Shown here: positions 1-22,229 of the stretch, piece by piece
How positions within the stretch are numbered: position 1 is the first letter of the stretch
Layout: each line of letters starts with the position of its first letter
Source of the DNA: a virus
DNA length: 22,229 bases
Reading direction: 5' to 3' (one strand)
IMG/VR virus record: IMGVR_UViG_3300027851_000136
Span: 1 to 22,229 of that record
The notes under the pieces: model-generated
The model's input: only the letters and a program-made list of their open reading frames with translations
What the model was told of the DNA's origin: nothing
The model's database searches: none
Program-made: the position numbers and the translations under genes

Positions 1-162
1 CGGCCACGGCGAGCGGCGATCAGGGCGCGGCCACGGCGAGCGGCTATCAGGGCGCGGCCACGGCGAGCGGCACTCGGGGCGCGGCCACGGCGAGCGGCAC
101 TCGGGGCGCGGCCACGGCGAGCGGCTATCAGGGCGCGGCCACGGCGAGCGGCACTCGGGGCG
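1..162 (+). repeat. Six tandem 27-bp repeats
   Basis: Six consecutive 27-bp units start at 1, 28, 55, 82, 109 and 136, followed by a degenerate start of a seventh unit. The units are identical except at the two codons encoding residues 6 and 7 of the nine-residue peptide (gatcag, tatcag or actcgg). The array runs to the window edge, so its full length is unknown. The 27-bp period keeps the reading frame, so gain or loss of copies would change protein length without a frameshift. Confidence 0.95.
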
Positions 163-7808: not shown

Positions 7809-8389
7809 TAGCCGAACGCCCGGAAAAGAATGGACCCGCGGTCGTTGTCGTTGGACGCGGCCGGCGCGGTCTGCTGCGTGCCGCGACGAGCGGTCGACGT
7901 GCGCGCCTGGCCGGCTGGCGTCGGCGCGACCTGCGCGGGCCCGATAACCGCGCCGCCGTATGTCGTCTGGGCGATGATGACTTCGCGCAGTTGCAGGGTC
8001 ACGGTCAGCGCGTCGAACTCTTCGGGCCGTTCGTCGTGCGGCATGGCGGTAAGCACCATGTTATCGTACGTCTGGGCCCGGGTCTGGACGGTCAGCAGCG
8101 TGGACGCCCGGAACAACTCGCGGATTTCGCCGTACGTCGTGGGCGCTTGGCTTCCCGTGACCATCAACGGCATTTCGATTTCGACGGGCAGAAAAACGAT
8201 GTGGTCGACCACGGACGAGTTGTCTTCCAAGGGGTGCTCGAGGGCCTTGGCGACTTCGTACACATTGGCGGTCATGGGTCGCGCCAGGGCGAAGACTTGT
8301 TCGCCCGTGTCGGCACGGCGTACCATCACCACGTCAGCGACCGTGGCGGTGTTGTCGGTCTGGACGGAGGATCCGGCGGTCAATGCCAT
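7808..8389 (-). CDS. Dit-like tail protein linking tape measure end to baseplate
   Basis: This 193-residue protein resembles the Dit-like N-terminal domain found immediately after the tape-measure gene in many contractile phages. Residues 50-100 (ALEHPLEDNSSVVDHIVFLPVEIEMPLMVTG) carry the family pattern of 'HPVEDG-S-V-DHV-P' followed by a beta strand, then helix and strands up to TVTLQLREVIIAQTTYGG near residue 143. The last 45 residues are Pro/Thr/Ala-rich and probably flexible. The expected role is to form the ring connecting tail tube and hub. Overlaps of one base with both neighbours place it firmly in the tail operon. A LysM domain, present in some relatives, is absent. Confidence 0.75.
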   Translation of the reverse strand: MALTAGSSVQTDNTATVADVVMVRRADTGEQVFALARPMTANVYEVAKALEHPLEDNSSVVDHIVFLPVEIEMPLMVTGSQAPTTYGEIRELFRASTLLTVQTRAQTYDNMVLTAMPHDERPEEFDALTVTLQLREVIIAQTTYGGAVIGPAQVAPTPAGQARTSTARRGTQQTAPAASNDNDRGSILFRAFG

Positions 8390-10128
8390 CAGCGATCAAT
8401 CCCATCATCGAACTGGGCGGCTACGTCGCCGTACCGCTGCGTCAACGCGTTGCCCACGCCGGCCGGGTCGGTGCTGCGCGTGTTCACGGTGACGCCGCCC
8501 ATGTTGATATTCTGCGTGCGGTTCGTTCGGCTGTTGCTGGTGACGCTCGCGGCGGTCTGCGAGGCAAACGGGGACGCGGCGGCGCGAGCGAGCTGGCCCT
8601 GCCCCATCGCAGCGGCGTTGGCGCTGTCGCTGACCGGCAGACCCATCAAACGCCGGGCCCCGTTGACCGCGATGTTTATGCCCTGAATGATTTTGCCGAT
8701 CGTCGCATCCCACCAACGGCCGATCATTCCGAACACCGCGCCGAACACGTCGCCCAGCGAGCGAACGGCCGCAGCGACGCCGCCAAAGACGATGCGCGCC
8801 AAACCGACCCACGGCGTGATCAGGGCGACAAAGACCTTGGCGACAAAGCCGAATACCGCAACGGCGACGTCGCGGAACAAGCCGAAAATGGGCGCGGTCA
8901 GCGAGTACCAGGTGCGGAACGCGCTGACGAGAAAATCCGCCGTCGCTTTTGTGGCACCCACAAGGCCGTTGAAGACTGCGACGGCGACGCGGCCCAGCAC
9001 GCGGAAGGCCACGGCCAAGCCTTCGACCAGCGCCCGGAACCATCCGTACCGCCCCATGAGCGAACCGATCAGGCTGTCTTGCCCGTTCAAGAACGCCATG
9101 ACGTCTTCGTACGCCAAGGCAAAGGCAATGCCCAGCGCTGCAATCGCGGCCACCGCCAGCAGAATGGGCCACGTCGCCGCGATGACGCCCGCCGCAGCAG
9201 ACCAGATGGCGGGGAGAAAGGACGCGGTGATCACGGTGCCCGCGATGGCAAAGGCGATGCCCAGCCCCTCGACAAACTTGGCGTTCTCGCGCATCCATTG
9301 CGCGCCCTTAACCAACCACCCGTTGACCGTGGCCAAGGCCGGCGCAATGGCCGACACCAGCGTAAACTTCCAACCCTGCAGCACGCCCTGGAGCTGTTCG
9401 GAGCTCTCTTTGTACTTGTCGATCCGGTTGGCTTGTTCCTGCGTGATCGCGCCGTTGCGCAGTTGCTCTTCGGACAGGGCCTCAATGGCGGTGCGGCCCT
9501 GCAGCAGCAGCTTTATGGTGCCTTCGTCGGTGATGCCCAGCCGGCGAATGGCCGCCAGTTGTTTGGTCTTTTCCAGCCCCTCGAGCGCGCCCGCCACCTC
9601 CAGCAGCGACGTGCGCACGTCCTTAAGGTTGCCGTCCGCGTCGGTGGCGGACAGGCCCAGCGCCGCCAGGGCTTCCACGCCGCGCTTGCCGATACCCGCC
9701 TGGATCCGGCGCAGCATTGTGTCGTACGCCTCCAGTTGCGCTTCGGCGTCGGCCAGCTCGCCGCCGCTCGCCTTGACCGCCCGACGCCACGTGTCGAAAT
9801 CCTGCGCGCCCAGACGGATGCGCGCGGACGCATCGATCAGCCGGTCGGCTTCCTCCACGGTGCCCTGCAACGCCGCGTTCAAGGCGTACACGCCTGCCGT
9901 AAGCCCCGCCGCCCCGATCAGGCCAATCACGCCCTTGAACGACCGGCCCAACTTGCCCGCGTTGTCTGCGGCTTTGTCAATCGCCGGTGCGAGCTGACGG
10001 GCGCCTTTCACACTGTCGTCAATGGCGTCTGCGGTCTTGGCACTCTCGCCGCGCAGGTCCGCCATTTCCCGTTCCGCCTTTTTGGCGTCGGTGTCGAACA
10101 GGATGTAAAAGGTGTCCAGTATGCTCAT
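8389..10128 (-). CDS. Tape measure protein
   Basis: This 579-residue protein sets tail length. It has a helical N-terminal part (residues 10-60, many Lys/Glu/Ala), a long helical region, then three hydrophobic stretches (about 289-340, 364-390 and 410-460) suited to membrane insertion during DNA entry. The C-terminus carries NINMGGVTVNT (about residues 540-550) followed by a final helix, a common ending in tape-measure proteins. At about 0.15 nm per residue this predicts a tail near 87 nm, which is an inference from the usual rule. The ATG overlaps the chaperone stop (ATGA), and the gene follows the two-frame chaperone as expected. No peptidase or lysozyme domain was seen. Confidence 0.9.
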   Translation of the reverse strand: MSILDTFYILFDTDAKKAEREMADLRGESAKTADAIDDSVKGARQLAPAIDKAADNAGKLGRSFKGVIGLIGAAGLTAGVYALNAALQGTVEEADRLIDASARIRLGAQDFDTWRRAVKASGGELADAEAQLEAYDTMLRRIQAGIGKRGVEALAALGLSATDADGNLKDVRTSLLEVAGALEGLEKTKQLAAIRRLGITDEGTIKLLLQGRTAIEALSEEQLRNGAITQEQANRIDKYKESSEQLQGVLQGWKFTLVSAIAPALATVNGWLVKGAQWMRENAKFVEGLGIAFAIAGTVITASFLPAIWSAAAGVIAATWPILLAVAAIAALGIAFALAYEDVMAFLNGQDSLIGSLMGRYGWFRALVEGLAVAFRVLGRVAVAVFNGLVGATKATADFLVSAFRTWYSLTAPIFGLFRDVAVAVFGFVAKVFVALITPWVGLARIVFGGVAAAVRSLGDVFGAVFGMIGRWWDATIGKIIQGINIAVNGARRLMGLPVSDSANAAAMGQGQLARAAASPFASQTAASVTSNSRTNRTQNINMGGVTVNTRSTDPAGVGNALTQRYGDVAAQFDDGIDR

Positions 10129-10660
10129 TGCTTGCGGTTCGCCGCCAGATACTCGTTAACGCGGGTCGTCATGACGATTTCCCAAAGGTCAAAAGCCTCT
10201 TCCAGCGTATAGACGGTCCCTAGTTCCCGGAGGGTGGCTTGTCCGCTGGCGACAATTGCTCCGATAAAGCCGTCAACATTTGCGAAAGCCACGGCTTCGC
10301 TTTCTCCATAAGCGGCGCGAGGGAAGCGGCACTCACGCCGTTCTCGAAAAAACTGCAGTTGTACTCGATCATGGCCCATTCGAGCCGCGCCAGGGTTTCC
10401 CAGTCTTCTGCGTGGTTGTCCACGAGGGCGCGCGTCGTGAGCATCAGGGGGGCGTCGCGCCCCTCAATCTGGACGCCGACGTGCGACATGAGCTTAAGCA
10501 TGATCGCTTCGCTCACGCCGTAATCGCCCAGCTTCGGCAGATTGGACACCGGGTATTTGGCGACGATTTCGCGCCCGACCGTGGCCGGGAACTTGTGCAA
10601 CACGAACGTCCTGGCGTCACCCGACGCTGTGCGAAGTTCGAGGGGCTTGGGGTGCAACAT
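10125..10660 (-). CDS. Tail assembly chaperone, predicted G-T frameshift product
   Basis: Reading begins at ATG 10660, shifts -1 at the slippery TTTTTTC (10352 to 10346), and continues in the second frame to the stop at 10125-10127. The product would have 105 residues from the first frame plus 73 from the second, 178 in total. The second frame carries an ATLRELGTVYTLEEAFDLWEI stretch, recognisable as the T-like part of phage chaperones. The second frame lies -1 relative to the first, the direction used in lambda G-T. An alternative is a separate 55-residue protein starting at GTG 10292, with GGAG eleven bases upstream. The stop overlaps the tape-measure ATG (ATGA). Confidence 0.6.
10220..10660 (-). 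CDS. Tail assembly chaperone, G-like short product
   Basis: This is the in-frame product of the chaperone locus, 146 residues, lying between the tube and tape-measure genes where lambda gpG-type chaperones occur. The ATG at 10660 is preferred because GGAG lies nine bases upstream; a GTG at 10690 would add ten residues with poor support. Residues 1-65 contain the LELRTASGDARTFVLHKFPATVGREIVAKYP pattern common to phage chaperones of this type, and residues 85-110 are helical. Such proteins coat the tape measure during tail assembly and are absent from the virion. The gene also encodes an extended product by a probable -1 frameshift. Confidence 0.78.
   Translation of the reverse strand: MLHPKPLELRTASGDARTFVLHKFPATVGREIVAKYPVSNLPKLGDYGVSEAIMLKLMSHVGVQIEGRDAPLMLTTRALVDNHAEDWETLARLEWAMIEYNCSFFENGVSAASLAPLMEKAKPWLSQMLTALSEQLSPADKPPSGN
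10314..10352 (-). promoter_or_regulatory. Candidate -1 frameshift signal (slippery site and hairpin)
   Basis: On the - strand the heptamer T-TTT-TTC falls in the correct X-XXY-YYZ phase of the first frame. Six bases later an 8-bp stem (GGCGTGAG with CTCGCGCC, one G-U pair) encloses a ten-base loop. The loop segment CGCTT can pair with AAGCG about 11 bases past the stem, so an H-type pseudoknot is possible. Slippery phase, spacing and stem are all in the range of known frameshift sites. Frameshifting itself is inferred. Confidence 0.6.
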
Positions 10661-10714
10661 GCGGCGCGGCTCCGTAAGGTTTGACCGCACCGTAACGCCT
10701 GGCGGTTATGGCGT

Positions 10715-11158
10715 CTAGGCGCGCGACATGCCCTCAAAGGCAAAAACGTACGCCTTGGACTTAAGGCGCCCAGCGCTCGCCACCGACTGCCCGGGCATGC
10801 CGTCCGTGATCACGCCTTGCGACAGGGTGATGGTGCGGCCGTCCGGGTACGTCGCGGTCATGGTGATGGTGTCGCGAGCTCCGAACTTGCCCTTGCCGGT
10901 CCGGTTGGCCTCGAGAAGCACCGCCAGGTTGCGGTCGTCATCCGACGCCGGAATGATGTTGATGGTCGGCTTGATCGGATTGGCCTTGGACCACGCGATC
11001 AGGTCGCCGTTCAAACCCATGGCCGTGTCGCGCACCTGGATTGACGGCAGGTCGAACGGATCCGCATCGTCGGCAAACTGCGACAACGTGATACCGGCCG
11101 GGAAGGTGGCCGACGCCGTGAGGCGGATGCGGAGGCCGAAGCCGGAAACGTCGTTCAT
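10715..11158 (-). CDS. Tail tube protein (DUF3277-like)
   Basis: This 147-residue protein follows the sheath gene, as tube genes do, and matches the DUF3277 pattern. It begins [36 protein letters not shown], with a later [21 protein letters not shown] segment and a C-terminal half of beta strands ([21 protein letters not shown]). Tube proteins of this group stack as hexameric rings inside the sheath and form the DNA channel. Its length is normal for the family. The gene starts 11 bases after the sheath stop, with AAGGG as a ribosome-binding site. A 54-base gap with no clear promoter or terminator separates it from the chaperone gene. Confidence 0.85.
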
Positions 11159-16721: not shown

Positions 16722-17825
16722 TTATGCGTCTCCGTTGATGTATTTGTCGATGACGCTGCCCTGGGCGGGCGCGGCGTCCATGGCGACCGGGGCGGGCACA
16801 GGCTTGGCGCGCAGGAAGCCGTCGAGCGTCGCGCGCTGCGCGGCTTCCGGCACGTCCTTGATGCCCAGCTTGTCCAGACCGTACGCGACGACCTGCGCGG
16901 CGTTCATGGTGGCGTGGGCCGCGTCGAAGGCCCCGACGTGCGGCGTGAGGCGCTTGATCAGGTCGGCTTTGTCAGCCGCGTCGTGCGCAGCGTCGGCTGC
17001 GTCAACGGTCGGCTTCATGGCCGCGATCTGGGCCTTAAGCGGAGCGGTCGCGGCGTCAATGGCGGCGGCCAGCGCGGCCTTGTCCATGGCGCCCTTGTCC
17101 TCTTCCTTGTCTTCGCCCTCTTCCTCTTCGTCTTCCTTGGCCTTGACGGCTTCGGCGAGGGCGGCGGGCATGGCGTCCGCGACAGCTTTGGTCACGGTGT
17201 CGGGCAGACCGGCCAGGGCCGTGGCGACAGCGGCGTCAATGGCGGCGAGGGTGTCTTTGTCCAGCACGGGCTGCAGCTCCTGCGCGTCCACGTGGTCGTA
17301 CGTGAACCTGTGATCCAAAACGGCGACTTCGGGGCCCATTCGCCCCTGCTTCACCACTGCAACATGATTACCACGCATTTTCCGTTGCACAACGTCATAT
17401 TTTACGCCGTTGTGCTCGCCGGGCGAAAAATCGTACTCGCAGCGATAGCCGCACGACAGTTCTTTCTTGCCGCTGTTGATCTGCCGCGCCAGGGCTTCCG
17501 AAAAAATCTTGATGTTGCTGTACAGCGTGCCGTCGTCGAATACGACGTCATCGCCGGTCACACCGCCCACGCCCTTGCGCTCCACAGGCGTCAAGCCCGC
17601 GTCGATCGACCCGAGCATTTCGTGATCATCAATAATCGGAACGGTGCGGAACGACGCGAGGCATTCCGGATCCGCGAGCTCTTCGGCCGGGCGGTACACC
17701 TGGTACACGCGGTCGGGTTCGTCGGCGCCGATGCTCGAGCCGAGATATGGGAACACGCCGACTTTCGACAGCGGGTTGCGCTTTACGACGAACCATCCAT
17801 TCTGATCGTAAATTCTGGCGCTCAT
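16722..17825 (-). CDS. DUF2213 prohead protease fused to scaffold
   Basis: This 367-residue protein begins with a DUF2213 domain (residues 1 to about 180). Family motifs visible are IDDHEM near residue 68, KELSCGY with Ser124, and GNHVAVV with His154; Ser124 and His154 are the likely catalytic pair by comparison with prohead proteases. Residues 185-300 are Ala-rich helices broken by a very acidic segment (about 228-245, mostly Glu, Asp and Lys), which is typical of a scaffold. The C-terminal 60 residues form a further helix-rich part. It would direct capsid assembly and then be degraded in the maturing prohead. The ATG overlaps the stop of the endonuclease gene (ATGA). Confidence 0.87.
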
Positions 17826-18430
17826 GGTTCCAATCTCTTACCCGCGATCAGCGCCAAACGCGCCGCGCGCATCTTCATCCGTGTTTCTTTTGATCGTGGG
17901 CGTGCGCTACTGGCCGCACCGATGCGAGACTTAGTCTCTTCTGTATGACGGAAGCCTGTAGCTCGCAAGGACAGGTTTCGTCGATATTCTTCCGACCGTA
18001 CCGACCCGGCGGCATTTTTGTTGCCGCGCAACGTCGCGGCTATCTTATCCCGCGTCTCCTGCGTGACCACGCGGCCCGTTTTGTGGGCGTTGATTTTCGC
18101 GCAGTGTTCAGGCGTATACTTGCGCCCCAGTTGGGTTTGCGCCCCGCCGCACCCGATATTCCAACCGATGTTTTCTGCCGGGCGCAGCCGTTGTTCCAGG
18201 TCGAGACAATACGCCGGGTCGCCCACGCACAGCACGCCAAAAACGAGGTTTTCGGGCTTGTATCTGCGGATGGCGTCTTGAAGACGACGGCACGTGTTGG
18301 CACCCTTTTGGGCCTCGCGAACGTGTCGTTTCCACCGATACGCGGGCTTTCCGCTGGTGAAACCGACATAGCCTTGCGTGCGGCAATCGGTGTGTTCGGA
18401 ATGACGGATCCAATAAACGCTCGCCGTCAT
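17822..18430 (-). CDS. GIY-YIG endonuclease with NUMOD3-like repeats
   Basis: This 202-residue protein is a probable free-standing homing endonuclease. The GIY-YIG core has VYW at residues 5-7, YVG at 21-23, Arg32 (RWKRHVREA) and Glu79 in the LDLEQRLRP segment, followed by NIGWN, an order found in Seg-type enzymes. From residue 101 on there are four or five short basic units of the form [19 protein letters not shown] or [15 protein letters not shown], which resemble NUMOD3 DNA-binding motifs. The ATG at 18430 overlaps the MuF stop and its own stop overlaps the protease ATG, both as ATGA. Such genes spread by cutting relatives that lack them. Whether it is active cannot be told from sequence. 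Confidence 0.87.
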
Positions 18431-19296
18431 TGATCTTCGCCAAACTCCAGCACGGGGCGCATGACGCACCGGCAGTTGATCAACTGACCAGGCAGACCCC
18501 GTTCTTTCGTCTTGTCGTCAATGATGGGCGGGTCGTCAAGGCTGTAGATATTGCCGCTCATTTCGACGTGCAGTTTGCGCGGCTCTTTACCGCCGGAGCT
18601 GTGCAGCCATTCGAACTTGCGGATGCCCAGCCCTTTCATGCGCGCGGCATTGAGGTTGGACGTAGCCTTGGACGTCTGGTCGCGGGCGATCAGTTCCGCG
18701 CGCTTCGTGGTCACGACGCCGATATGCTCGATCGCCGCCAGGACGCCGGCCGACCCGTCGCCGCGCTGAATATTGCGCATCACTTCGCCCTGTATTTTCA
18801 AAAAATACTGGTCGGGAATGGACCGAATAAGCGCGACGTTTTCGACGATGCCCGCTTTGGTAATCTCAATCGCGGCCTTGGGGATTGTCCGCGTGGACAG
18901 CGACACGCCGCCCGACATTTCCTTAAGCGATTGGTGCAGTGACGCACTGGACGCGGCGTCAACCTGGGCCTGCATGCGTTCGGCGAGCGGGCGCGATTGG
19001 CGCGAGAAAGCCGCCATGAACCGCTTGCGCAGGGCGTCCGTCAGGATCCGCGCTTGCGAAGCGTACGACGGCGCGTCCTGCGCGATGGCGTCGGTTGCGA
19101 ACTGGCGGTCAAGCCGGCGGAACCCCGTTTCCGTGGCAATGCGCATTTGCCGAACCAGCAGGGTCAGAGCGCGTTGGTATCGGCTCTCGACCGCCGCGCT
19201 GTAGTGCAACGGCGCGCCCTTGAACGTGTGACCCCCGCGCGCTTCGGCGTACGCCTGGCGGCTTTTCGTCAGCGGCGGGCGGGTGTTGCGCGCCAT
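18427..19296 (-). CDS. Mu gpF-like minor head morphogenesis protein
   Basis: This 289-residue protein carries the MuF domain in its C-terminal half: ARDQTSKATSNLNAARMKGLGIRKFEWLHSS, followed by KEPRKLHVEMSGNIYSLDDPP and PGQLINCRCVMRPVLEF. The Cys-Arg-Cys motif and His of LHVEM are conserved in the family. The N-terminal half is helical and basic, suited to binding the portal. The protein is packaged in small copy number and helps head assembly. Some MuF proteins carry a C-terminal toxin, but this one ends right after the domain. The ATG overlaps the portal stop by one base. Confidence 0.88.
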   Translation of the reverse strand: MARNTRPPLTKSRQAYAEARGGHTFKGAPLHYSAAVESRYQRALTLLVRQMRIATETGFRRLDRQFATDAIAQDAPSYASQARILTDALRKRFMAAFSRQSRPLAERMQAQVDAASSASLHQSLKEMSGGVSLSTRTIPKAAIEITKAGIVENVALIRSIPDQYFLKIQGEVMRNIQRGDGSAGVLAAIEHIGVVTTKRAELIARDQTSKATSNLNAARMKGLGIRKFEWLHSSGGKEPRKLHVEMSGNIYSLDDPPIIDDKTKERGLPGQLINCRCVMRPVLEFGEDQ

Positions 19297-21251
19297 CAGT
19301 CGTCCAGCGCCTCAAAAACCTCCGGCCCGAACACCAGCTTGCCGCGGTACGGCTCGACTTTCGCCAAATCGACGTTGCCCAGTTCGTACGTAATGGTCAC
19401 GTGGGGTTGGTATCCCGCGTGGTCCCACGACGCCCCGCGCTCGCGCATTTGCTCGTGGCGATAGGCCAGGGCCGACGAGTTGAACAGCAGGACGATGGCG
19501 CCCTTGTCGCCCAGCGGCTCCACAAGGCGCGCGCCGCCCGGCTCGATCGTCAGGTTGCCGTTCTGGTCGCTCGACCAGTTGTCGCCCATGACCATCCAGT
19601 CAACGGGCGCGCGGCTGTAGGTCACGGTCACGTGCATGTCGTCGGCGGGCGTCGTCACCTTGAAGCCCTGCGCCTTGGCCCATTTGATCAGCTCGCGGGC
19701 GTTGACCAGCTTGCGGCACACATAGAGCGGACGGGGCGCGGCGTCCGCCGTTTCCTGCTGCTGCGCTTCGGCCAATGCGAGGGCTTCCGCTTCCTCTTGC
19801 TCGACGTCTTCCGGCGACACGTCGGGCAGGTCGGTGTAATCGCCGCCCTTGTCGCCCTGCAGCCGGGCGCGCACGTCCATGCCATCGATCGCGCCGGCGT
19901 TGACCAAAACGGCGTCGCGTTCCGCCTTGATCTTTTCGATTTCGGCGTATTCCTTGGCGGACGGGGTGTCCAGCGGGTTCCAGTCCGCGGTCACGTCCAG
20001 CGACCCCGGGGCCTTCCCGTACTTCGGCTCAATCTCCGAACGGGTCAACAGCATCAGGTGACGCTCCAGCAGCGGGTCCAGGTCGTTCGCCTGGATACTT
20101 TCGAGCGTCTGCTGATAGTTTTCCGCGTCGCCTTCGCCCGTAGCGTCGAAGCCCTTGGGCGGCGTGCCCATGAGTTTGGTTACGGGCATGTCGGCAATCG
20201 CCGCGACGATCATGTACTGCGACGCAATGACGTTATCGAGGTCCGCCAGCGACGTCTCCAACTGCGCCACGGTGTCTTCGCTGTCCACCATGTTGACGCC
20301 AAAGTTGTCGCGCATCTCCGTCATGTTCTGCAGGTGCGTGACGGTGCCTTCCTGGTTGGCCAGCTTTTCCGCCAGGTCGGTATTCCACGTCAGCAGACGC
20401 TTCGACATGGCGAGCATCGGCGCTTCGTTGGCGGTGCGCTCCGCAGCGTACACGCGTTCCATGATGCGTTGCGGCAGCGGCACGCCGCCATAGCGGTACG
20501 ACGGTTTCAGAACGTCCGCGACGGGATAGGGGACGCACACGACCAGATGCGACCGATGGTACAGTCGGCCGTTGACTTGCCACCATGTCGGGTCATAGAA
20601 CCCCGGGTTCGCTGGGTCGCTCGCGGCCGCAGCGTCCAAAATCGGCGTGCACCAGTAAGGATCAACCTGCGTCATGCCACGGTAGCTGCCCGGCGTCACG
20701 CCATCCGGATTGAACGGCAGTTCGTAGTACTTCGGGTCCGTGCTCTCGATAAGCGGGATCCACACGCGCACGCCGAACAGACGCGCACGCTGGACAAACT
20801 CTTGCATCTGGGCGTTGAGGCCCATGCGCTTGTTGGCTTTGTGCAGGTCTTTGATCGCGTCGGCCTGTTGGCTTTCGTCCAGACCGTCGATCGTCATGCT
20901 GAAACCGTGGCGCACCGCGTCCCGCGCGGGCGTCGTGCACGCTTTGTCCACGAGCCAATGCTGCGCGACGAACGCCGAGAACTGATACCCAAGAAACCCT
21001 TGCGCCGCGTACCACGCGAAAAGCGCCTCCGGGGCCTGCCCGGCCGTGTCGCCCCATGCGCCCAAAGCCCCCGCCCCACACATAGCGTCCTGACCCGCCC
21101 CTGTGACCACGGGAGCGGCACGACGCACGCCTTCGATGGCGCGAGCGATGACCGCCTTGCGCTGGTCGGGCATCATGCGGTCCGTCGACAGCACGCGCTC
21201 GCGCGGTGCGAGGGCCGAGGCGGCGGGCTTGGGCGACCAGGGCCAACGCAT
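19296..21251 (-). CDS. Portal protein (DUF1073) fused to Acb1-like phosphodiesterase
   Basis: This 651-residue protein has two parts. Residues 1 to about 480 form a DUF1073-type portal: EALFAWYAAQGFLGYQFSAFVAQHWLVDKAC near residue 80, a PYWCTPILD stretch at about 198, and MPVTKLMGTPPKGFDATGEGDAENYQQTLE at 355-385. The portal ring is the DNA gate of the head. Residues 481-507 are an acidic, Gln/Ala-rich linker. Residues 508-651 look like an Acb1-type 2H phosphodiesterase, with HVT at 540-542 and HVT at 617-619, Tyr510 and a C-terminal FGPEVFE with Glu644. Acb1 cleaves the cyclic oligonucleotide signals of CBASS immunity. Activity of this copy is inference. The stop overlaps the MuF start. Confidence 0.88.
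   Translation of the reverse strand: MRWPWSPKPAASALAPRERVLSTDRMMPDQRKAVIARAIEGVRRAAPVVTGAGQDAMCGAGALGAWGDTAGQAPEALFAWYAAQGFLGYQFSAFVAQHWLVDKACTTPARDAVRHGFSMTIDGLDESQQADAIKDLHKANKRMGLNAQMQEFVQRARLFGVRVWIPLIESTDPKYYELPFNPDGVTPGSYRGMTQVDPYWCTPILDAAAASDPANPGFYDPTWWQVNGRLYHRSHLVVCVPYPVADVLKPSYRYGGVPLPQRIMERVYAAERTANEAPMLAMSKRLLTWNTDLAEKLANQEGTVTHLQNMTEMRDNFGVNMVDSEDTVAQLETSLADLDNVIASQYMIVAAIADMPVTKLMGTPPKGFDATGEGDAENYQQTLESIQANDLDPLLERHLMLLTRSEIEPKYGKAPGSLDVTADWNPLDTPSAKEYAEIEKIKAERDAVLVNAGAIDGMDVRARLQGDKGGDYTDLPDVSPEDVEQEEAEALALAEAQQQETADAAPRPLYVCRKLVNARELIKWAKAQGFKVTTPADDMHVTVTYSRAPVDWMVMGDNWSSDQNGNLTIEPGGARLVEPLGDKGAIVLLFNSSALAYRHEQMRERGASWDHAGYQPHVTITYELGNVDLAKVEPYRGKLVFGPEVFEALDD
19299..19730 (-). 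other. Acb1-like 2H phosphodiesterase domain of the portal gene
   Basis: This segment encodes portal residues 508-651. Two HxT motifs lie 77 residues apart (HVTVTYS and HVTITYE), as in 2H phosphoesterases, where both His residues act on the phosphate. The opening LYVCRK and the spacings from Tyr510 to His540 and from His617 to Glu644 resemble what I recall of T4 Acb1, where catalytic histidines are near 44 and 113. I cannot align the two here. Confidence 0.75.
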
Positions 21252-22229
21252 CAGACGGCCTTCGTAATGGTCGCGCGGACCGTGCCGCTCGCCAAGTCGA
21301 TTGTCGCGGCGGGTTTGACGCGAACGGTAAGTGTCCCGGATCCCAAATCGATCGGGCCGCCCGTGTGATTGTGCAGCAGCACCGTGACGGTATTCGCGGA
21401 GCTCACATACGCCGTCATCATGAGGGTCTGCAAATCAAGCGAAAACGCCGCTTCTGCCACGTCGCCCAAAACGGCGCCCGTCACAGTGACGGTAGTCGAA
21501 ACGGTGCTGTTGTCGCTGATGCTGGGCGGGTCGTACGTCGCGGATCCGGTCAGGTCGGCGTCTGGGCGGTAGAAATAGTACGACACGGTGCCCGCCGCGC
21601 TAACCCACGCCTCGATCGCAACGCCTTGCGAGGCGAGACTAAACGACGCTTGCGCAAAGTCCCCGAGCGCCGCGCCCGCCAGGGCGACCGTCTGGGTCGG
21701 GCCGCGCTGGCCGGGCGCGAGGGCGGGCGGGTCATACGTCGCGGACGCAACGGTCACGGCGTCCGCCAAGTACCACCGGGTATTGTAGAACGTCAGCTCG
21801 TAAACGCGGTTTAGCTGCAAAACAACGTCACCGCCCGTATTGGTCACGATGGTGGCGTTGTTTTGCAGCGTGAACGCTGCCTCCGGGAGGAGACGAATAG
21901 TCTTGCCCGAATAGGACCCCAAGATACTCGTTATTGTGACCGGCGTCCCTGTCAGGAACGCAAACGTTGTCCCGTTCATATCGAGCGTTGCGGAACCTTG
22001 CCGCGTCACGATTGGCGCTTCGACCGCCGACGACCCAAGGTAGCCGTCAAAGCTAAACAGGCGGCTCGTGTACGGGCCGGAGCACTGGTAATAGGTGTTG
22101 CGCAGATAGACCTGCAGAGCGGCCGCCGTGTCTTCATAGCCGTAGAGCGGCGTCTTGGCCGTGTTGCCCGGGGTCGCCAGCGCCATGGCGACGGGGCCGA
22201 CCGTTTGCGACGTGTTGACGGTGTACGTC
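21251..22229 (-). CDS. Beta-rich phage protein with duplicated domain, 5' partial
   Basis: The frame is open to the window edge. An ATG at 22186 exists but has no ribosome-binding site, so the gene probably begins further upstream and about 325 residues are visible. The first half (YQCSGPYTSRLFSFDGYLG, later GKTIRLLPEAAFTLQNN and NRVYELTFYNTRWYLAD) has the look of the end of a beta-helix or fibre. The second half contains two copies of a domain with ATYDPP, GAxLGDxAxAxFSL and SxAxTV. I recall similar units as C-terminal modules in many phage proteins, with no known role. Its stop overlaps the portal ATG by one base (TGATG). It may be a head or tail decoration protein. Confidence 0.65.
   Translation of the reverse strand, partial: TYTVNTSQTVGPVAMALATPGNTAKTPLYGYEDTAAALQVYLRNTYYQCSGPYTSRLFSFDGYLGSSAVEAPIVTRQGSATLDMNGTTFAFLTGTPVTITSILGSYSGKTIRLLPEAAFTLQNNATIVTNTGGDVVLQLNRVYELTFYNTRWYLADAVTVASATYDPPALAPGQRGPTQTVALAGAALGDFAQASFSLASQGVAIEAWVSAAGTVSYYFYRPDADLTGSATYDPPSISDNSTVSTTVTVTGAVLGDVAEAAFSLDLQTLMMTAYVSSANTVTVLLHNHTGGPIDLGSGTLTVRVKPAATIDLASGTVRATITKAV
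21317..21742 (-). repeat. Tandem duplicated beta-domain in the partial gene
   Basis: Two units of about 65-75 residues follow each other, beginning with ATYDPPAL and ATYDPPSI (near 21742 and 21541). Both share TV-x-L/V-x-GA-x-LGD, FSL, VSxAxTV and a run of hydrophobic strands. Only the second has a full LGSGTLTVRV ending. The units diverge clearly at DNA level, so the duplication is old. Confidence 0.75.

Follow-up and report, generated by a model that had tools for sequence, protein, structure and literature searches.

A viral genome fragment of 22,229 nucleotides (IMG/VR record IMGVR_UViG_3300027851_000136, positions 1 to 22,229; hereafter 'the window') carries on its minus strand a tail assembly chaperone (TAC) gene that very probably yields two proteins through a programmed −1 ribosomal frameshift, a reading to which we assign a probability of about 94% on the strength of comparative sequence evidence. 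The short form (TAC-N, lambda gpG-like; 10220..10660) runs from an ATG at 10660 to its stop and comprises 146 aa, with an in-frame GTG at 10690 as an alternative start that would yield 156 aa. Within it, a slippery heptamer T TTT TTC (10346..10352) lies in phase (AGT TTT TTC), and a second open frame (10125..10346) continues past it for 73 aa to a TGA (10127..10125). Most ribosomes would stay in frame and produce the short form; in a minority, the two Phe tRNAs on UUU UUC would slip back to UUU UUU and translation would continue in the −1 frame. The predicted product is a 178-aa fusion (TAC-NC, gpGT-like) in which the shared chaperone domain of 105 residues is followed by a second domain of 73 residues, the junction reading ...CSFF-RERR.... 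If the roles match those in lambda G/GT, the short form would coat the tape measure protein, and the long form, the rarer of the two, would recruit tail-tube subunits. A first-pass annotation of the window had proposed such a shift, and its coordinates for the in-phase heptamer, a six-base spacer and a second frame lying exactly at −1 all proved right on checking the sequence, as did its placement of the shift at residue 105 of 146 (counting from ATG 10660), which exchanges the last 41 zero-frame residues for the 73 of the −1 frame.

Conservation of the slippery heptamer

Taken from the window alone, the argument against chance is a moderate one: TTTTTT occurs three times in the 22 kb, twice in phase, and an in-phase heptamer combined with a −1 frame open past the stop arose in 2.3% of trials in which the codons of the gene were redrawn from window usage. 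Relatives, on our reading, settle the matter, and their conservation is far stronger evidence than these window statistics. They comprised 27 IMG/VR sequences from the chaperone search, five phage records (L029–L032 and L038), the IMG/VR loci L043 and L044, and bacterial prophages L093–L096 from a search of genome contigs with the second domain, giving an in-family set of 32 non-redundant sequences, window included, once near-duplicates were removed. TTTTTT was present at the same point in all 32, with relatives at ~40–77% protein identity, and every in-family relative, the four bacterial prophages included, maintained an open −1 frame of 73–83 aa past the heptamer. Divergence at the two freely variable wobble positions within the T run was 0.0, against a mean of 0.58 at upstream wobble positions. 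One relative (L002) encodes Phe as TTT at just 2 of 55 other Phe codons, but retains TTT at the slip site. Relatives were sought with degenerate peptide patterns, so codon choice at the site was not preset by the search.

Slippery sites also extend beyond the family. Distant relatives with other chaperone N-domains retain both the second domain and a slippery site, namely T TTT TT[C/A/G] in L048, L049, L050, L052 and L053, A AAA AAG in L047 and T TTT TTT in L097. Measurements in Escherichia coli place H_HH.U_UU.Y motifs, among them U_UUU_UUC and U_UUU_UUU, in the high-efficiency class (PMC4066793). The shift site of another relative (L014, ~1590–1605) contains three overlapping in-phase slippery heptamers (AAATTTT, TTTTTTA and TTTAAAG).

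A conserved homopolymer run might equally reflect slippage by RNA polymerase, with mixed mRNAs, a shift made in transcription and the same fusion as a result. Transcriptional slippage usually requires about nine or more bases in a run, however, and the T run is six long in 21 of the sequences, seven in 11 and never longer. It also always lies in X XXY YYZ phase, and both the A AAA AAG of the distant relative and a peak of structure downstream of the heptamer (described below) are typical of ribosomal shifting. We therefore consider a transcriptional origin extremely unlikely.

Conservation of the -1 frame as protein

The alignment of the −1 frame shows the conserved motifs N-[VI]-D-G-[FL]-x-G-x-I, A-[TS]-L-x-E-L, Y-[TS]-L-E-[DE]-A and N-E. 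Upstream of the shift, it is the third positions of frame 0 that vary most; late in the overlap, the third positions of the −1 frame do so (0.53 vs 0.38 and 0.30), and the stretch coded by the −1 frame alone follows the same pattern (0.66 vs 0.36 and 0.27). This substitution pattern indicates that purifying selection acts on the −1 frame inside the overlap. In many sequences, the stop codon of the zero frame is embedded in the codons for the conserved E-L-[RK] of the −1 frame (GAA CTG A..); judging from the alignment, this would account for how commonly the zero-frame tail measures 41 residues. The −1 frame matched PHROG 3976 (2.3e-13) and PHROG 4774 (2.5e-7), and in profile comparison the C-terminus of Pbunavirus PB1 gp41 (probability 99.6). 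A Pfam search returned no family for either frame, and a PDB sequence search matched nothing meaningful.

Two overlapping frames could also be the remains of a broken gene, whether through sequencing error or the decay of a single gene by a frameshift mutation. Because the layout recurs at an identical point across dozens of independent genomes, phage isolates as well as prophages, and the −1 frame is under selection, that explanation is left with a negligible probability.

Could the −1 frame instead be an independent gene with its own start, the T run being incidental? The window offers two such starts, ATG 10379 upstream of the heptamer and GTG 10292, and a counterpart of the GTG was found in 13 of the 32 non-redundant sequences. 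It is missing from the remaining 19, however, and neither codon is a conserved start: in 18 of the 32 the −1 frame reaches the conserved core without an ATG, GTG or TTG, and only three carry an ATG or GTG upstream within the open −1 frame, the counterpart of ATG 10379 being found in L003. In L008, the −1 frame has a stop immediately 5′ of the heptamer and lacks any start codon beyond the heptamer, so that only a shift can express the −1 frame there. An independent start would furthermore leave the invariant wobble Ts unexplained, and we judge it very unlikely. The frameshift reading of the first-pass annotation thus came through every comparative test that was run, with invariant Ts at the site and a −1 frame conserved as protein.

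Predicted fold and the early shift

Structure prediction suggests that the N-terminal domain has a tail assembly chaperone fold. Residues 1–102 of the modelled short form aligned with the HK97 TAC (2ob9, Z 6.0, a middling value taken alone), YqbN (3klu, Z 7.6) and PICI ORF19 (5ir0, Z 10.0); matches of this domain in BFVD were named tail assembly or tape measure chaperone, and the short form matched the PB1 gp38 group by profile (probability 99.9). The AlphaFold2 model of the short form was confident to ~residue 102, and from residue 106, immediately beyond the slip site, its confidence was under 50. The shift thus sits at the end of the predicted chaperone fold, and the zero-frame tail that it replaces is therefore probably disordered. 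An in-frame PB1-type relative, folded as a stand-in for the fusion, gave low confidence in its second half.

A position near the 3′ end of the short-form gene, which is typical though not strictly defining of the lambda G/GT type, is not what we found: 41 zero-frame codons follow the heptamer in the window (35–52 in the family) compared with five in lambda, confirming that the shift occurs earlier than in lambda G-T, as had been noted from the window. Tail length does not seem essential, since the distant relatives L049 and L052 have short zero-frame tails.

Downstream structure and evidence against frameshifting

Several observations weigh against a programmed shift. The fusion is predicted, and no frameshift product has been observed. 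Immediately downstream of the heptamer, the spacer GAGAAC (10345..10340) is followed by an 8-bp stem with a 10-nt loop (10314..10339), in which GGCGTGAG (10339..10332) pairs with CTCGCGCC (10321..10314); this possible stimulator was no more stable than dinucleotide shuffles (z −0.24 over 50 nt and −0.33 over 70 nt). Upstream, no clear Shine-Dalgarno-like stimulator was seen, although no statistical test was applied. Finally, six relatives (L033, L034 and L039–L042) keep both frames without the heptamer, so the wider family can do without it.

We rejected the window's stem as a conserved element: L002 and L003, the relatives closest to the window, fold differently, and the base pairs of the stem are not conserved one by one. 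When structure was averaged over 28 sequences, the 48 nt beginning 12 bases from the start of the heptamer were nevertheless the most structured of 49 positions (mean z −1.61), with z below −1.5 in 57% of them, and the stems directly downstream of the heptamer differ between relatives. A fair reading is that the stimulator would be variable but generally present across the family. Of the stem or pseudoknot stimulator that the first-pass annotation had suggested, then, the 8-bp stem exists and a family-wide structural tendency accompanies it, but that particular structure gained no support; similarly, of the heptamer and stem whose conservation it had proposed checking, the former was kept throughout the family and the latter was not kept even in the closest relatives.

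Loss of the heptamer with retention of both frames, named beforehand as a finding that would count against the shift if it occurred in close relatives, does occur, but only in a distant Erwinia/Yersinia-type clade (36–38% identity to the window by tblastn) that comprises the six sequences above. At the site (~2300–2330) these read TTC TTC G[AC]A AAG, in which A_AAG is the only slip motif that we found common to all six. A_AAG is the strongest slip tetramer in E. coli (PMC4066793), and it is possible that this clade slips at this candidate motif.

Related phages and known systems

In Pbunavirus PB1, MyoSmar and Maja, the second domain forms the C-terminus of a protein of 172–177 aa that is read in a single frame and is collinear with the fusion, its gene lying between those for hub and spike (L045:1189–1722, L046:1213–1731 and L051:1210–1731). 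In PB1, the gene immediately preceding that of the tape measure protein encodes gp38, a homologue of the short form, and gp41 (177 aa) corresponds in layout to the 178-aa fusion; unlike in the window, these are two separate genes, and because gp41 is read in one frame from a gene of its own no frameshift is needed. The PB1 gp41 group aligned with the predicted fusion over 156 columns (probability 99.6), as it did with the second domain alone (99.6). Its N-terminal part matched the N-domain of the window at a non-significant probability of 1.2 with three sequences and at 80.5 with a deeper alignment, making homology of this part likely but not firm. The virion atlas of phage Pa193 does not include gp40 and gp43 among its listed structural proteins (PMC11042391). 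Gene order makes these two the probable counterparts of PB1 gp38 and gp41, and their absence would be in keeping with a role as chaperones, since chaperones do not remain in the particle. The PB1 record also annotates a different potential slippage site, at gp43/gp44 before a baseplate wedge gene (L045:2454–2507).

We lean, with modest confidence, towards a single chaperone system decoded in three ways: by slippage at a T6 heptamer, by slippage at A_AAG in the Erwinia/Yersinia clade, and from a separate in-frame gene behind the hub in Pbunavirus-type phages. If true, the three decodings would constitute a natural experiment on whether frameshifting must set the ratio of short to long form, and such different routes to the long form in related phages make the dependence of tail assembly on the frameshift ratio testable by comparison.

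Frameshifted tail chaperones have been known since lambda and are common (PMC5009743). Lambda G/G-T shares with the window a chaperone gene before the tape measure gene, an in-phase heptamer, a −1 frame that reaches the tape measure gene and a rare long form (PMC5009743; lambda record), but its GGGAAAG lies five codons before the G stop and adds ~144 codons, whereas TTTTTTC in the window adds 73 aa, and we saw no sequence relation between the two genes. P2 E/E+E′ is likewise from a myovirus and has a T6 heptamer (TTTTTTG), a −1 extension (57 aa) and the same gene position (P2 record), although its shift falls six codons before the end of E and, again, no sequence relation was seen. A further known system is that of the Vandenendeviridae and Andersonviridae (phage Adele), in which a conserved poly-T (GTTTTT) −1 shift in the myovirus chaperone gene usually goes unannotated (PMC12846349); these are different phage families from that of the window. 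Our literature search combining TTTTTTC, frameshift and tail found no paper. T4-like phages reportedly use a mechanism other than frameshifting, going by the title of one paper.

In the phage records that we inspected, the short form is annotated, no joined product is given, and the second domain is unannotated or hypothetical. The kind of frameshift described here is thus already known, and is newly found in a phage group whose inspected records do not annotate it, adding a missing gene product to these myophages. It also points to a likely role, that of long tail chaperone, for PB1 gp41, which is listed as hypothetical in hundreds of Pbunavirus records, therapy phages included.

Genomic setting and other features of the window

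On its minus strand, the window has a module of head and tail genes whose products include relatives of proteins from E217-type myophages, identified by library matches as the sheath (DUF3383), an E217 gp32-like tube, the hub (E217 gp41) and the gateway (E217 gp29). Sheath, tube, chaperone gene and tape measure gene follow one another in that order, which is the position expected for a chaperone gene of the lambda G/GT type. Upstream of the chaperone gene, the tail-tube-like structural gene (10715..11158, minus strand; PF22764, 9e-63) belongs to the E217 gp32 family, which carries the label 'tail fiber' in the libraries. Downstream, the tape measure protein (8389..10128, minus strand; PHROG tail length tape measure, 1.9e-47) is the expected client of the chaperone. 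Its ATG (10128) shares bases with the stop of the −1 frame in an ATGA overlap (10125..10128), and comparably tight stop/start junctions with the tape measure gene occur in several relatives.

Elsewhere on the same strand, the portal open reading frame (ORF; 19296–21251, 651 aa) carries an Acb1 anti-CBASS domain (residues 508–650; PF23474, 2.8e-40) behind its portal domain (PF06381), and this phosphoesterase may be active, since two H-V-T motifs (MHVTVT and PHVTIT) are present. An ORF with a NUMOD3 motif (17822–18469, minus strand) lies between head genes, overlaps both neighbours and looks like a free-standing homing endonuclease. Near the end of the ORF at 21251–22186 (minus strand), an in-phase TTTGGGA (heptamer at 21347) is followed by 681 stop-free codons in the −1 frame, reaching into the portal ORF, and may be due to chance.
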